Shown one piece after another: positions 36,730 to 44,397 of a DNA stretch of 64,000 nt (its first letter is position 1; every line of letters starts with the position of its first letter). The translations under genes were made by a program, and so were the position numbers. Under the pieces are notes generated by a model. It ran no database searches. It saw only the letters and a list, made by a program, of their open reading frames with translations, and was not told the origin of the DNA. This DNA is from Azospirillaceae bacterium (GTDB lineage Bacteria > Pseudomonadota > Alphaproteobacteria > Azospirillales > Azospirillaceae), in NCBI GenBank assembly GCA_035645145.1, contig DASQNC010000025.1, positions 372,001 to 436,000 of the forward strand, in the 5' to 3' direction.

Positions 36730-39234
<2,505 letters not shown>

Positions 39235-39304
39235 CGGCCACTCGCTGCAAAAATCAAGGGGAACTTGCCGGTGCCAGGACCGGCGGCGATACCGACATTA
39301 ACCT

Positions 39305-39312
39305 AAAGGAGG
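39305..39312 (+). promoter_or_regulatory. Strong Shine-Dalgarno that defines an uncalled small ORF
   Basis: AAAGGAGG is a near-perfect ribosome-binding site, 11 bp before the ATG at 39324. It lies about 150 bp before the SET-domain start, so it cannot serve that gene directly. Confidence 0.6.
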
Positions 39313-39323
39313 CATTTGGTTCC

Positions 39324-39464
39324 ATGGCGCATGCGGAGACAAATCGTGGTCGGGCCCTTGGCGCTTGCAACGGCGAATCGATCGTGCATGCTGCAAGGAG
39401 AGGTCGCCAATCCCCGGCCCGCATGCCCGCGGGCCCGCCGAAGCGGAGTTGCCGCTGCCCATGA
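39324..39464 (+). CDS. Small Arg/Cys-containing ORF coupled to the SET-domain gene
   Basis: 46 codons, ATG 39324 to TGA 39462-39464, preceded by AAAGGAGG. The product begins MAHAETNRGRALGACNGE and ends PPKRSCRCP, with about 8 Arg, 3 Cys and no hydrophobic segment. Its TGA overlaps the ATG of the SET gene in an ATGA, the classical coupling arrangement. The SET ATG itself has only a weak, distant GGAG. It could be a leader that sets translation of the operon, a peptide substrate of the downstream enzymes, or a chance frame. Function is not known. Confidence 0.45.
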   Translation: MAHAETNRGRALGACNGESIVHAARRGRQSPARMPAGPPKRSCRCP

Positions 39465-39832
39465 TGCTGGTGCCCACTTATCTGAAGCAAAGCCCGATCC
39501 ACGGCCTCGGACTGTTTGCCGCGGAGCCGATCCCCAAAGGCACGGCCATGTGGCGTTACCAGGAAGGGGTCGACATCATGATCCCCCTGCCCCTCGTGGC
39601 CACGCTTCCCGACCTGGCGCAGGCCTACCTGCGCCGCTACGCCTATGAGACGCCGCAGTTCCCGGGCGGCCTTATTCTGAATTTCGACAATTCCCGGTTC
39701 ATCAATCACTCGACCGATCCGAATACCGACAACACGGGTGAGGTGACCGTCGCCAGGCGCGATATCGCCAAGGACGAGGAAATCACCTGCGACTACGGCG
39801 AGTTCTGCAAGGAGTTCGATCTCAGGGATTGA
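39461..39832 (+). CDS. SET-domain protein (putative protein-lysine methyltransferase)
   Basis: 123 aa, a minimal SET domain. SET motifs seen are GLGLFAAEPIPKGT (about 16-29), the pseudoknot FINHS (80-84) and CDYGEFCKEF (110-119), which should carry the catalytic Tyr of the DYG-type end. No chromatin or targeting domain is fused. Bacterial SET proteins of this size methylate lysines of unknown proteins. It is followed 91 bp later by the GNAT gene and then by the ATP-grasp ligase. Two adjacent ATG codons (39461 and 39464) open the frame. Confidence 0.85.
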   Translation: MMLVPTYLKQSPIHGLGLFAAEPIPKGTAMWRYQEGVDIMIPLPLVATLPDLAQAYLRRYAYETPQFPGGLILNFDNSRFINHSTDPNTDNTGEVTVARRDIAKDEEITCDYGEFCKEFDLRD

Positions 39833-39923
39833 GCATCCGCCCCGCCCCCATCGTTGCGCCCGTGCCGTGACCTGCCAGGCCTCCCCTTGGACGGGCTCCG
39901 GGACCGCCGCCGAGGAAGGCGCC

Positions 39924-40439
39924 ATGGCGCAGCCGACGCTGCGCCAGGCGCATGCGGGGGATCTCGACGCCCTGCTTGAGATCGAGGCGGCTTCCTTTCC
40001 TTCGGACCAGCTCAGTCGGCGGGCGATGCGCCGCCTGATCGCGGACGGCGGAAAGATGATCGTCGCCCAGCAGGACGGCCGCGTCGTCGGCTACTGCTGC
40101 GTCCTGCGACGGCGGACCAGCCGGTCGGCGCGGCTGTATTCGATCGCGGTGCGGGCGGACACCGGCGGACGCGGCGTCGGCCGCGCATTGCTGGCGGCCG
40201 CCGAAGCCCTGTCGGTCGGCGCCGGCTGCACGTCGCTTCGGCTGGAGGTGCGGACCCATGAGACCCGCGCCGTCCGGTTCTACGAGGCGGCCGGCTACCG
40301 CCGCATCGCCGATCTGCCCGGATATTATGCCGACGGCGCCCCGGCACTCCGCATGTGCAAGGCGCTGATTCCGCCGACGGAGCCCTTCGACCAGACAGCG
40401 GTCCCGGCCGCGCCATCCCGAAAGGCCGCCCATGCCTGA
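39924..40439 (+). CDS. GNAT-family N-acetyltransferase
   Basis: 171 aa. The acetyl-CoA-binding segment reads AVRADTGGRGVGRALLAAAEAL, followed by SLRLEVRTHETRAVRFYEAAGYRRI, a RimI-like pattern. The ATG at 39924 (MAQPTLRQ) has GAGGAAGG upstream and is chosen over a frame starting 57 bp earlier. It overlaps the ATP-grasp gene by 8 bp. GNAT genes paired with this class of ATP-grasp ligase are known from comparative genomics; in many of them a C39-like peptidase is fused to the GNAT domain, and that part is absent here. Confidence 0.88.
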   Translation: MAQPTLRQAHAGDLDALLEIEAASFPSDQLSRRAMRRLIADGGKMIVAQQDGRVVGYCCVLRRRTSRSARLYSIAVRADTGGRGVGRALLAAAEALSVGAGCTSLRLEVRTHETRAVRFYEAAGYRRIADLPGYYADGAPALRMCKALIPPTEPFDQTAVPAAPSRKAAHA

Positions 40440-42075
40440 AGGTTTTCGCGCCCATACCCGGTATCGGAATCAGGATCTGCGCACGCAGGAGCCGGACGAG
40501 CGGGAAGGACCCGAGCAGCCCCCTCCCGGCCCTGCGGCGGAGGGTACGCCGCGCCCCGGCACCCCCGGGGCGGTCCAGAAGGGCGGAGCCGCCAAACCCG
40601 GGACCTCGACGCATGTGGTGATCGTCGACAAGCGGTCCGATTTCCGCTGGCCCGAAGACGGTTTGAGCATCATCACGGCCAAGGAGTACATCACCAGCCC
40701 CGATGCCGTGCGCCCCCGCAACGCGCGGGTGATCAACCTCAGCCGCAATGCGTACGAATACCTGGGCATCGGCTATTACTGCTCGTTGCTCGCCGAGGCG
40801 CGCGAGCACCGGGTGATCCCGTCCGTCAAAACCATCCTCGACCTGAGCCTGAAGACCCTCTACCGCCCCGCCCTGCCGGAGCTGGAGGAGCTTTTGCGCA
40901 AGCGCATCCGCCGGATGGCGAACCCGCCGGAAACCTCGTTCCACCTCTACGTCTTCTTCGGCACGGCCGAAGACCGGCGGTTCCAGGATGTGGCACGTCG
41001 AACCTTCGACCTGTTCCGGGCCCCACTGCTGAAGCTGTCGATCCGGTGGAAGGAGGATTGGATCATCCATGCGGTCGAGCCGCTGTCCGTGGATGCGCTG
41101 CGGCCCGACCAGATCGAGGCCGTGGGACAGGCCATGGATGCGTACACGCGGGCATCCTGGCGTGCGCCCAAGATCAAGGCGGCCGCCCGCTACACCCTGG
41201 CCGTTCTGCACAATCCGAAGGAGAAAATCCCCCCGTCCGATCCCCGGGCATTGCAAAAATTCATCAAGGCCGGCGAGGCGCTGGGCATCGATGTCGAGCT
41301 GATCGAGAAGAAGGACTACCTGCGGCTGGCCGAATACGACGGCCTGTTCATCCGGGAAACAACCGCTCTCGACGACCACACCTACCGTTTCGCCAAAAAG
41401 GCGGAAAAGGAAGGAATGCCGGTCATCGATGACCCCAATTCCATTCTGAAGTGCACGAACAAGGTCTATCTGGCGGAGCTGTTGAAGGCCAACAAGCTCC
41501 CCGCCCCGCGGACCGTGATCCTGGACAAGAGCCGGCTCGCCAGCTTGGAACAGGAATTCGAATATCCAATCGTGCTCAAGATCCCGGACGGATCCTCGTC
41601 GCGCGGCGTTTTCCGCGTCCGCACGCCGGACGAACTGCAGGCCACGGCCGCCATGCTGTTCGACGAGTCCGACGTGATCCTTGCCCAGGAATACATGTAC
41701 ACGGAATTCGACTGGCGGGTCGGCGTGCTGAACCGCCAGCCCATTTTCGTCTGCCAATACGAAATGGCCAAAAAGCATTGGCAGATTCTGCGCCACACCG
41801 CCAACGGCGGGGTCGAGGAAGGTGGCGTGAAGACCTTCCTGGTCGAGGACGCCCCCAAGGAGGTGGTGCAGCTTGCCGTCGCCGCGGCCGGCATGATCGG
41901 GGACGGCCTCTACGGGGTGGACCTGAAGCAGAACGAGAAGGGCCTGTTCGTCATCGAGATCAACGACAACCCGACAATCGACGTCGGCGTTGAGGATCAA
42001 AAGCTGAAGGACGACCTTTACCGCATCGTAATGCGGGAATTTCTCCGCAGGATGGACGCGCGCGCCGGAAGCTGA
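40432..42075 (+). CDS. RimK-like ATP-grasp ligase with N-terminal RLAN domain
   Basis: 547 aa. Residues 1-58 are a Pro/Gly-rich, likely disordered extension. Residues about 60-215 match the RimK-like ATP-grasp N-terminal (RLAN) domain. An ATP-grasp ligase domain fills about 265-540, with VLKIPDGSSSRGVF (Lys383, glycine loop 386-392), ILAQEYMYTEFDWRVGV and the metal-binding EINDNP (509-514). RimK relatives add amino acids such as Glu to proteins or small molecules; the substrate here is unknown. The 8-bp overlap with the GNAT gene and the SET gene before it suggest one modification or peptide-synthesis pathway in the cytoplasm. Confidence 0.88.
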   Translation: MPEGFRAHTRYRNQDLRTQEPDEREGPEQPPPGPAAEGTPRPGTPGAVQKGGAAKPGTSTHVVIVDKRSDFRWPEDGLSIITAKEYITSPDAVRPRNARVINLSRNAYEYLGIGYYCSLLAEAREHRVIPSVKTILDLSLKTLYRPALPELEELLRKRIRRMANPPETSFHLYVFFGTAEDRRFQDVARRTFDLFRAPLLKLSIRWKEDWIIHAVEPLSVDALRPDQIEAVGQAMDAYTRASWRAPKIKAAARYTLAVLHNPKEKIPPSDPRALQKFIKAGEALGIDVELIEKKDYLRLAEYDGLFIRETTALDDHTYRFAKKAEKEGMPVIDDPNSILKCTNKVYLAELLKANKLPAPRTVILDKSRLASLEQEFEYPIVLKIPDGSSSRGVFRVRTPDELQATAAMLFDESDVILAQEYMYTEFDWRVGVLNRQPIFVCQYEMAKKHWQILRHTANGGVEEGGVKTFLVEDAPKEVVQLAVAAAGMIGDGLYGVDLKQNEKGLFVIEINDNPTIDVGVEDQKLKDDLYRIVMREFLRRMDARAGS

Positions 42076-42079
42076 AATA

Positions 42080-42170
42080 AAGGTACTTACCTTATCTGCA
42101 ATTCTGTACGTTTTCCGATCAAGTCGTTAGAAAATATTATTTTATCCAGACCACGGAATCGTTCGTTCAT
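42080..42170. other. AT-rich intergenic segment after the ATP-grasp gene
   Basis: This stretch is far richer in A+T than its surroundings. It begins with an inverted repeat AAGGTA-CT-TACCTT (42080-42093) just after the ligase stop and contains GAAAATATTATTTTATCC. It may hold a terminator or promoter elements; no gene is visible. Confidence 0.4.
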
Positions 42171-42173
42171 CTT

Positions 42174-42199
42174 GGAACACCATTCCGATTGACCGCGTT
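42174..42199 (+). promoter_or_regulatory. EcfG-type (general stress) promoter upstream of the sigma gene
   Basis: GGAAC (42174-42178) and CGTT (42196-42199) are 17 bp apart, matching the alphaproteobacterial general-stress consensus GGAAC-N16/17-CGTT exactly. It would drive the ECF sigma gene through a leader of about 250 nt, suggesting autoregulation. Confidence 0.65.
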
Positions 42200-42454
42200 C
42201 TCCGGGCAACATGACAGGGACGGCGCGGGGTCTGATGGCCGCAACGGTCCCGGTGCTCCGCGAACCCTGTTCTCCATACGCGGGGGTCGTCCATGACGCC
42301 GAGACGCACGTCGAAGACGTTCTGAACACTCCCGCTGGCCCGACGCGACCCAGCGGCGGCCGGATCCAATCCCGAGGCGATGCCCGACGCGCGCACCTCA
42401 TGGGCGCGTAGGCCCCACAGCTTATCCGGCGCCATATCGGAGGAAGAGGTACAG

Positions 42455-42928
42455 ATGACCTATTCGTTCACGAAAGAGCTTGTCACCTGCATCCCCAGCC
42501 TCACCCGATACGCCTGCAAACTGACCCGCGATGCCGCCGCGGCGGAGGATCTCGTGCAGGATTGCTTGGCGCGCGCCCTTTCGCGTCAGCACCGGTTCGA
42601 ACCCGGCACCAACATGCAGGCCTGGCTGACCACCATGCTGAAGAACCTGCATTTCAACAATCTCCAGCGCGAGAAGCACATGACCAAGGTCGAGCTGTGG
42701 GACAGCGCGGCTTCGGTCGAGGCCTCGCAGATGTCCCGCCTGATGTTCCGGGACGTCGACCGTGCCTTCCGGAGACTGACGGTTTCCCAGCGCAAGGTGG
42801 TGAAGCTGGTCGCCATCGAGGGCCGCCCCTACCAGGAGGCGGCGGACACCCTCAACGTTTCCATCGGCACCATCCGCTCCCGGCTGTGCCGCGCCCGCGA
42901 ACGGCTGAACAATCTCGTGGCCGCATGA
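42455..42928 (+). CDS. ECF sigma factor (EcfG-like)
   Basis: 157 aa, only sigma2 and sigma4 regions. Sigma2 shows SLTRYACKLTRDAAAAEDLVQDCLARAL and FEPGTNMQAWL, the latter typical of EcfG/RpoE2 proteins. Sigma4 has RPYQEAADTLNVSIGTIRSRLCRARERL. An EcfG-type promoter lies upstream. NepR and PhyR genes, the usual neighbours of a primary EcfG, are not seen, so this may be a secondary EcfG. The ATG at 42455 has AGGAAGAGG upstream; in-frame codons before it belong to the leader. Confidence 0.88.
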   Translation: MTYSFTKELVTCIPSLTRYACKLTRDAAAAEDLVQDCLARALSRQHRFEPGTNMQAWLTTMLKNLHFNNLQREKHMTKVELWDSAASVEASQMSRLMFRDVDRAFRRLTVSQRKVVKLVAIEGRPYQEAADTLNVSIGTIRSRLCRARERLNNLVAA

Positions 42929-43033: not shown

Positions 43034-43891
43034 TTAGCCGTTGACCACCGTGCCCCCATTGGGATGCAGCACCTGCCCCGACATGTAGGAGCTGTCGTCT
43101 GACGCCAGGAAGACGTAGGCGGGCGCGACCTCCTCGGGTTGGCCGGGCCGCCCCATGGGTACGTCGCTGCCGAATTCCTTCACCTTGTCGTCCGTGAAGG
43201 TCGACGGGATGAGCGGGGTCCAGATCGGGCCGGGAGCGACCGCGTTCACCCGGATGCCGCGCTCGGCGAGGTTCATCGACAGCGACCGCGTGAAGGCCAC
43301 GATGGCCCCCTTCGTTGCGGAATAGTCCAGCAGCATCGGGCTGCCCTTGTAAGCGGTCACCGACGTCGTGTTGATGATGCTGGCCCCTTCCTTCATATGG
43401 GGGAGTGCCGCCTGGGTCAGGAAGAACATGGCGAAGATGTTGGTGCGGAACGTGCGCTCCAACTGCTCCGGGGTGATGTCTTCCAGATTCTGCTGCGGAT
43501 GCTGCTCGGCCGCATTGTTCACCAGCAGGTCCAGCCGGCCATGGGCATCCAGCATCTGCCGGACGGCGTTCCGGCACACCTCCGGATCGCCTGCATCGCC
43601 ACGGAAGGTTTGGCAGGTCTGGCCTTCGGCCTCGACCATGCGCCTGGTCTCGTCGGCATCCTCGTCCTCGTTCAAATAGAGGATGCCGACCTTCGCCCCC
43701 TCGCGGGCGAACAGGACCGCCACCGCCCGGCCGATCCCGCTGTCGCCCCCGGTGATCAGGGCCACCTTGTCCTGGAGCTTTCCGCTGCCGCGGTACTGCG
43801 GCCGCGACGACTGGGGCTTTGGACTCATCCGGTCCTCGCGACCGGGCTGCACATCCTGGTGCTGGGGAGGCAGGGTCTGGTCCTGCGGCAT
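43034..43891 (-). CDS. Stress-type short-chain dehydrogenase/reductase
   Basis: 285 aa. A hydrophilic N-terminal extension (about 1-40) precedes the SDR Rossmann motif LITGGDSGIGRAVAVLFAREGA, the NNAAEQHP segment and the catalytic YSATK with upstream Ser (NTTSV). The extended N-terminus and GGDSGIG are typical of YghA/YhdF-like SDRs often found in general-stress regulons. The substrate is unknown. An EcfG-like promoter lies 37 bp upstream of the start chosen at 43891 (MPQDQTLPPQHQ). Confidence 0.88.
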   Translation of the reverse strand: MPQDQTLPPQHQDVQPGREDRMSPKPQSSRPQYRGSGKLQDKVALITGGDSGIGRAVAVLFAREGAKVGILYLNEDEDADETRRMVEAEGQTCQTFRGDAGDPEVCRNAVRQMLDAHGRLDLLVNNAAEQHPQQNLEDITPEQLERTFRTNIFAMFFLTQAALPHMKEGASIINTTSVTAYKGSPMLLDYSATKGAIVAFTRSLSMNLAERGIRVNAVAPGPIWTPLIPSTFTDDKVKEFGSDVPMGRPGQPEEVAPAYVFLASDDSSYMSGQVLHPNGGTVVNG

Positions 43892-43927
43892 GGCTGGCAC
43901 CTCGCGTGTCGAGTGGAAGCTGCCTTC

Positions 43928-43952
43928 AACACCAAGCCGCGCGGCCCGTTCC
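43928..43952 (-). promoter_or_regulatory. EcfG-like promoter of the SDR gene
   Basis: On the minus strand GGAAC (43948-43952) and TGTT (43928-43931) are 16 bp apart, one mismatch from GGAAC-N16-CGTT. It is 37 bp from the SDR start codon. Confidence 0.55.
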
Positions 43953-43967
43953 GGTGTGCAGGGTATG

Positions 43968-43993
43968 GGAACCCGGGCCATGGAGCCCCTGTT
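43968..43993 (+). promoter_or_regulatory. Possible second EcfG-like promoter, divergent
   Basis: GGAAC (43968-43972) and TGTT (43990-43993) are 17 bp apart on the plus strand. It points toward the anti-sigma-like gene 155 bp away. The weaker -10 makes it less certain than the other two. Confidence 0.35.
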
Positions 43994-44148
43994 GAGGGGA
44001 GCAGATCACCACTGGCTGCCGGCCCGCTCCGGCACACGCGGTGAGAGAAAGACGGCACGGTTCCCATCGACAGTCGGTCGCGCTCGGCTCCACCATCATG
44101 TATCATGACGGGAACTCAGATAGCCAAATGCGGCTGGATCCGGGATCG

Positions 44149-44397
44149 ATGACCAAAGTGCGCATCAGGATAAGCGATTTGAGCGCCTATCTGGATGGCG
44201 CCAACCACCCCGAAACCACACCGGTCATCGAGGCCGCACTGAGCGTTGATCCGGATGCGGCCGCCAAGCTGCGCCTGTACCGCCAACAGGTGCAGGAGCT
44301 CCACAAACTTTATGACGGGGTCCTGAACGAGCCCATTCCGGCACGGCTGATGGACGTCCTCACCCGCAGCCGCACCAACGGCACCAAGAAGCCCTGA
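44149..44397 (+). CDS. Small soluble anti-sigma-factor-like protein
   Basis: 82 aa. The sequence ISDLSAYLDGANHPE followed by LSVDPDAAAKLRLYRQQ and LHKLYDGVLNEPIPARL matches the N-terminal sigma-binding domain of ECF anti-sigma factors. No HxxxCxxC zinc motif is present and there is no transmembrane helix, so the usual membrane-sensor half is missing. The EPIPARL end also resembles NepR, the general-stress anti-sigma factor. It may inhibit the nearby EcfG-like sigma. The ATG at 44149 (MTKVRIRISDL) is chosen; in-frame ATGs at 44128 and 44098 are possible. Confidence 0.65.
   Translation: MTKVRIRISDLSAYLDGANHPETTPVIEAALSVDPDAAAKLRLYRQQVQELHKLYDGVLNEPIPARLMDVLTRSRTNGTKKP

Follow-up and report, generated by a model that had tools for sequence, protein, structure and literature searches.

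The closest described relative of this locus is a gene pair that Iyer et al. reportedly recognised by comparative genomics in 2009, in which a GNAT-DUF3335 protein (the DUF3335 part being a C39/papain-like peptidase) is paired with an RLAN/RimK-like ATP-grasp ligase. ATP-grasp ligases of these families form an acyl phosphate and then an amide, and a GNAT enzyme caps an amino group. The GNAT-RLAN pair is predicted to make small amide-linked molecules or to cap them; we found no experimental function for it in the open-licence papers of PubMed Central. An excerpt of PMC10318531, which cites Iyer et al. 2009, states that members of DUF3335 (PF11814) are often fused to GNAT domains.

We found a pair of this kind in the window, by which we mean the whole 64,000-nucleotide stretch of an Azospirillaceae bacterium genome that we analysed. 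We think it fairly probable that the locus represents the conserved GNAT-RLAN/RimK amidoligase pair in a form without the peptidase, standing behind a rare SET-domain gene, with a mechanism that we infer.

Gene layout and surroundings

The preliminary description of this DNA had read four tightly arranged plus-strand frames here. Three of them, the SET, GNAT and RLAN genes, hold up as genes, and all are on the plus strand; the first, a 46-codon ORF (39324-39464, +), does not, and we judge it to be non-coding from its composition, its codon score and a homology search. The spacing that had been given for the enzyme genes is correct: there are 91 bp between SET and GNAT, GNAT and RLAN overlap by 8 bp, and an ATGA stands at 39461-39464. 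We found no terminator-like site in the 91-bp gap, and a sigma-70 scan of 39000-42600 gave no promoter-like site. A gap of this length does not prove an operon; we believe that SET is probably co-transcribed with GNAT-RLAN.

The SET gene (39461-39832, +) encodes a minimal putative protein-lysine methyltransferase of 123 aa. Its PF00856 match is above the cut-off (E 6.2e-14), and the protein carries RFINH, EEITCDY and GxG, which we take to be SET-domain motifs; N82, H83 and Y112 are invariant in the orthologue alignment, and the post-SET cysteine cluster is absent. Judged by sequence, this is a SET domain with its catalytic motifs and a predicted methyltransferase. The start that we use fits the M-M/L-L start common to the orthologues, with M1 and L3 invariant across nine aligned orthologues, three of which were trimmed to that start. 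The stand-alone GNAT acetyltransferase (39924-40439, +) has 171 aa from its ATG at 39924, just 5' of which lies GAGGAAGG (39912-39919); its PF00583 E-value of 5e-17 is for the frame read from 39867. In the ligase (40432-42075, +; 547 aa) an RLAN domain is N-terminal to a RimK-like ATP-grasp domain, both above the cut-off (PF14401, E 3.4e-41; PF08443, E 1.9e-9). At its N-terminus the ligase has a Pro-rich extension of ~58 residues, which lies outside the region common to most homologues; the BLAST matches of relatives start near residue 59.

The locus lies between glgP, upstream on the minus strand, and an ECF sigma gene downstream. A GGAAC-N17-CGTT at 42174-42199 (+), which fits the pattern of EcfG-type stress promoters, stands ~255 bp before the probable start of the sigma gene (ATG 42455), and a weak NepR-like anti-sigma gene is found at 44041-44397. 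A second site, GGAAC-N16-GTT at 39300-39323 (-), overlaps the AAAGGAGG (39305-39312) that stands upstream of the 46-codon ORF. We considered this site as a stress-sigma promoter driving SET and rejected it because it is on the minus strand and faces glgP. The window has 12 matches to GGAAC-N15-18-GTT where 6.2 are expected, a number reached in 4 of 100 shuffles.

The GNAT-RLAN pair and its peptidase

RLAN was found in 36 of the 82 genomes of the family, in 45 of 385 genomes of a class draw and in 72 of 398 genomes of a phylum draw. We pooled RLAN loci from these three sources with those from relatives and from a scan of named genomes (32 loci), and scanned the flanks with profiles that we built for GNAT, C39, RLAN and SET. 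Removing identical proteins and loci with fewer than 380 aligned residues of RLAN left 159 non-redundant loci, which are a pooled set and no random sample; 20 loci collected later stand outside this count. Of the 159, 150 have a GNAT no more than 2 kb from RLAN, and several of the nine that do not are truncated by the end of a contig; 100 have C39 within 2.5 kb, and 5 have a SET, whatever its type. These counts bear out two statements of the preliminary description, that GNAT and RLAN form a recurrent pair and that a peptidase is usually fused to the GNAT; in one alphaproteobacterial MAG (L069:6921-9536) GNAT, C39 and RLAN-RimK share a single frame of 872 aa. The window GNAT belongs to the same lineage as 25 other RLAN-linked GNATs in our alignment, with 31-57% identity to them. 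The GNAT-RLAN/RimK pair is widespread and already known, and the pair in the window is ordinary for its kind.

The 11 aligned copies of the C39 domain retain the motifs FTCGP (FTCGA in one), PHW and, in most, HDP. In the window no C39/DUF3335 peptidase is fused in the GNAT frame, and a PF11814 match is absent from the whole 3.9-Mb genome. The missing peptidase had been presented as a peculiarity of this locus; the absence is real, both here and genome-wide, but it is not special because peptidase-less pairs are common (51 of the 150 GNAT-bearing loci). For the same reason we treat the C39 fusion as usual for the pair and not as a strict criterion. Within the family, all 28 genomes whose RLAN has 65-70% identity have a GNAT-C39 gene directly upstream (Azospirillum soli, A. 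oleiclasticum and two Skermanella among them), and the other seven RLAN-positive genomes (RLAN at ~45% identity) have a divergent stand-alone GNAT. On the RLAN tree (FastTree) peptidase-less pairs are scattered, and parsimony gives 21-23 changes in C39 (21 with the GNAT-less rows left out), 18 of them forced by starred branches.

The window RLAN is one of 20 rows that make up a starred clade on that tree. Of these, 17 have C39; the sister of the window RLAN, L055, is like the window without it. L055 is also the closest relative that we found, at 74% identity over the RLAN core, and it has a stand-alone GNAT plus an RLAN ligase with a Pro-rich extension of its own. There is no SET within 7.7-8 kb on either side of the L055 pair. 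The record is named as a Myxococcota MAG, yet its pair is the closest to this alphaproteobacterial one, which could mean misbinning or transfer. A peptidase-free pair in a 3.9-Mb genome with no PF11814 match makes the window a simple test case.

The SET gene beside the pair

If SET worked with the pair, as the preliminary description proposed, it should be kept beside GNAT and the ATP-grasp gene in related genomes, and this largely failed: among the 82 genomes of the family, with flanks of 1.5-8 kb, none of the 35 other RLAN-positive genomes has a SET near RLAN. For seven of these (G002, G014, G019, G023, G026, G028 and G033) the RLAN flanks were 1.5 kb and the genomes were searched whole for SET, and in G494 the RLAN is on an 8.8-kb contig. 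Searching 80 genomes, of which 78 are RLAN-positive, with PF00856 brought up SET in 22; the window aside, none has a SET within 90 kb of RLAN on one contig, and the nearest on an RLAN contig was ~93 kb away, in G127.

In the class draw the window SET subfamily is present in 20 of the 385 genomes (E up to 1e-10). With p values that are uncorrected for kinship and genome size throughout, SET and RLAN are found together in 7 of the 385 genomes against 2.3 expected (Fisher p 0.0045), and 4 of the nine strongest SET genomes have RLAN (p 0.013); leaving out the window, since it was chosen for holding both, the first count becomes 6, with 2.2 expected (p 0.014), and the second 3 of 8 (p 0.052). Two of the seven co-occurring genomes have the genes linked, the window and G526. 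In the other five SET is on another contig, and no SET was found within 3.3-6 kb on either side of RLAN. The proposed search for the three domains together gives a split result: within the family only the window has them side by side, and outside it a distant genome does too, with SET and RLAN co-occurring above expectation.

G526 is a distant alphaproteobacterium with the order GNAT-RLAN-8 bp-SET (L186), against SET-GNAT-RLAN in the window, and its pair is peptidase-less. The two SETs are of the same subfamily and 49% identical, and the RLANs are 53% identical. The RLANs are far apart on the FastTree phylogeny, where the G526 RLAN is on a long branch, and the two SETs were grouped in 8% of 200 bootstrap trees, the deep branches of the SET tree being unresolved. 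Within the order of G526 (7 genomes) the subfamily is found in G526 alone. These comparisons of sequences suggest that the linkage likely arose independently in the window and in G526.

The alternative to which we gave most weight is that SET is an unrelated accessory gene which came to stand beside GNAT-RLAN in two genomes by chance, SET and the pair both being patchy and gathering in the same accessory regions. We are evenly divided on this. The empty RLAN flanks in the family and the separate contigs in five of seven co-occurring genomes favour it, and so do the varied neighbours of the SET orthologues (a homoserine-kinase-like gene in G048, for example, read by eye) and of distant plasmid homologues, which stand beside diguanylate cyclases. 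It has to account, however, for the excess of co-occurrence and for the same SET subfamily 8 bp after RLAN in G526. We estimate the chance of that linkage at ~0.8% from 6 neighbour slots, about 4,500 genes and six other co-occurring genomes, a rough figure that may be higher inside accessory regions.

Several other neighbourhoods were noted along the way. In the order of G739 the SET subfamily is found in 7 of 18 genomes, with no GNAT or RLAN within the 1.5-kb flanks of the SET loci. On Paracoccus and Palleronia plasmids (L201, L202) a related SET is directly before a diguanylate cyclase/phosphodiesterase gene. By eye, a short-chain dehydrogenase near the window RLAN (43034-43981, -) resembles one near the SET orthologue of G607 (L180:5020-5877). 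Three gammaproteobacterial, Lysobacterales-like MAGs (L063, L066, L067) have a convergent SET 30-430 bp downstream of RLAN. We did not count these as support, because their SETs belong to a different type, ending in a post-SET CxC cluster, and no GNAT was seen in the sequence around RLAN. A Sphingomonas plasmid where SET adjoins a gene annotated as ATP-grasp was likewise discarded as a parallel, since the two genes overlap convergently and the annotation is for a phosphoribosylglycinamide synthetase domain.

A further reading, in which SET functionally replaces the C39-like peptidase in a pathway that methylates, acetylates and ligates, we regard as unlikely. Both SET-linked loci are without C39, and the two linkages differ in gene order. 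Among 44 scorable RLAN-positive genomes of the class draw (G657 was dropped because its contig ends at RLAN), C39 is missing in 6 of 7 SET-positive and in 13 of 37 SET-negative genomes, a post hoc comparison with p 0.019. This p rises to 0.038 without the window and to 0.077 when each genus is also reduced to one row. Moreover, the genomes of 13 of the 19 C39-less pairs lack the SET subfamily, and the sister locus L055 has neither C39 nor SET. Unlikely, too, in our opinion, is an undescribed three-enzyme system that arose when SET joined a peptidase-less pair in two or more alphaproteobacterial lineages, probably on separate occasions, so that methylation would mark the protein acceptor where proteolysis acts elsewhere.

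We return to the reading that we favour, a known pair behind a rare SET. The SET would be a recent, possibly functional accessory of the pair. It may be a real third partner: as a neighbour it is rare, not conserved in the family and recurs once at a distance, which is a lead and no proof. We found no paper on the SET, GNAT and RLAN combination in the open-licence PubMed Central literature.

Predicted chemistry and known systems

Structural searches bear on all three enzymes. The AlphaFold model of SET is of moderate quality (pLDDT 81, pTM 0.64) and matches MLL/SET1-type SET domains weakly (best Foldseek E 5e-6, TM ~0.4-0.5). The ligase was modelled over residues 59-547 with a mean pLDDT of 90. 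Its ATP-grasp half (model residues 193-487) matches LysX (Z 28.8), ArgX (28.4) and RimK (27.3) best, and the sequence profile agrees, with 3vpd as its top hit (E 3e-13); structural matches (VIA-align rows) barely cover the RLAN half (model residues 1-192). Searched against solved structures, the GNAT family profile ranks N-terminal acetyltransferases highest, and RimI follows closely.

With RimI and RimK as near neighbours in profile and fold searches, one could read the locus as a ribosomal-protein modification unit with a RimI-like GNAT and a RimK-like ligase. We consider this improbable. The GNAT scores 76.2 bits against TIGR01575 rimI (cut-off 86.4) and the ligase 91.4 bits against TIGR00768 rimK_fam (cut-off 143.4), so the ligase does not classify as a RimK S6-glutamate ligase. 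To our knowledge, neither RimI nor RimK has a counterpart of the RLAN half or of the usual peptidase fusion.

The 46-codon ORF had been described as a short Arg/Cys peptide gene whose frame might be conserved, and neither part is supported. GC at its three codon positions is 0.67/0.72/0.65, against 0.59/0.40/0.82 in SET and 0.63/0.38/0.85 in the RLAN core. At -0.37 its codon score is lower than that of every one of 960 pieces of the same length from 16 window genes, the same genes on which the score was trained, whereas 23% of 1,920 off-frame pieces reach or exceed it. The ORF matched no family in Pfam or NCBIfam, tblastn of its protein against the other loci collected by then gave a best E of only 0.12, and in G048 and G526, where we read the DNA upstream of the SET orthologue, other genes occupy that place. 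On this sequence evidence the ORF is almost certainly no gene, and a leader at most. That it is a precursor peptide which gets modified, for which its ATGA overlap with SET and the AAAGGAGG upstream could be cited, is hardly credible in view of the non-coding composition, the codon score, the missing homologues and the other genes in G048 and G526, and we dropped it as the substrate.

In the mechanism that we propose, the ATP-grasp protein would activate a carboxylate as an acyl phosphate and attach an amino acid, like LysX, ArgX and RimK, and its RLAN half would choose the acceptor. A free alpha-amino group of the substrate or product would then be acetylated by the GNAT. According to an excerpt of PMC4431377, ligation in another ATP-grasp group is perhaps capped by an acyl group from a linked GNAT, and capping after ligation may follow the same logic here. 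The target of SET, if it acts with the pair, would be a lysine in that acceptor protein, in the GNAT or in the ligase, which SET would methylate; were SET truly part of the system, a lysine-bearing protein acceptor would be favoured over a free small metabolite. The substrate, the product, the order of the steps and any role of SET are what we infer. Sharing an ATP-grasp fold does not fix the substrate, and the GNAT fold is promiscuous, which counts against the mechanism, as does the rimI match below its cut-off.

Among known systems, N-acetylglutaminylglutamine synthetase (TIGR03103) likewise combines GNAT with ATP-grasp, but the window proteins do not qualify as this enzyme: the GNAT scores 20.6 bits against a cut-off of 569, and the 25 top-ranked families listed for the ligase do not include TIGR03103. 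RimK of the RimABK system for ribosomal S6 polyglutamylation, as presented in an excerpt of PMC12239564, shares the RimK-like ATP-grasp domain; the window ligase differs in falling below the rimK family cut-off. LysX and ArgX, which work with the carrier LysW, share the ATP-grasp half, which aligns at Z 28-29, whereas the window ligase has an extra RLAN half and a GNAT partner. The window SET resembles the bacterial SET-domain methyltransferases in being a complete minimal SET domain, and differs in belonging to an alphaproteobacterial subfamily without post-SET cysteines, unlike the post-SET type beside RLAN in L063, L066 and L067. The nearest likeness is to the pair of Iyer et al. 2009, where a GNAT is likewise directly beside an RLAN-RimK ligase of the same family. 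From that pair the window differs in having no peptidase at the locus or in the genome, in the SET gene upstream, and in the Pro-rich N-terminal extension of its ligase, which it shares with L055.
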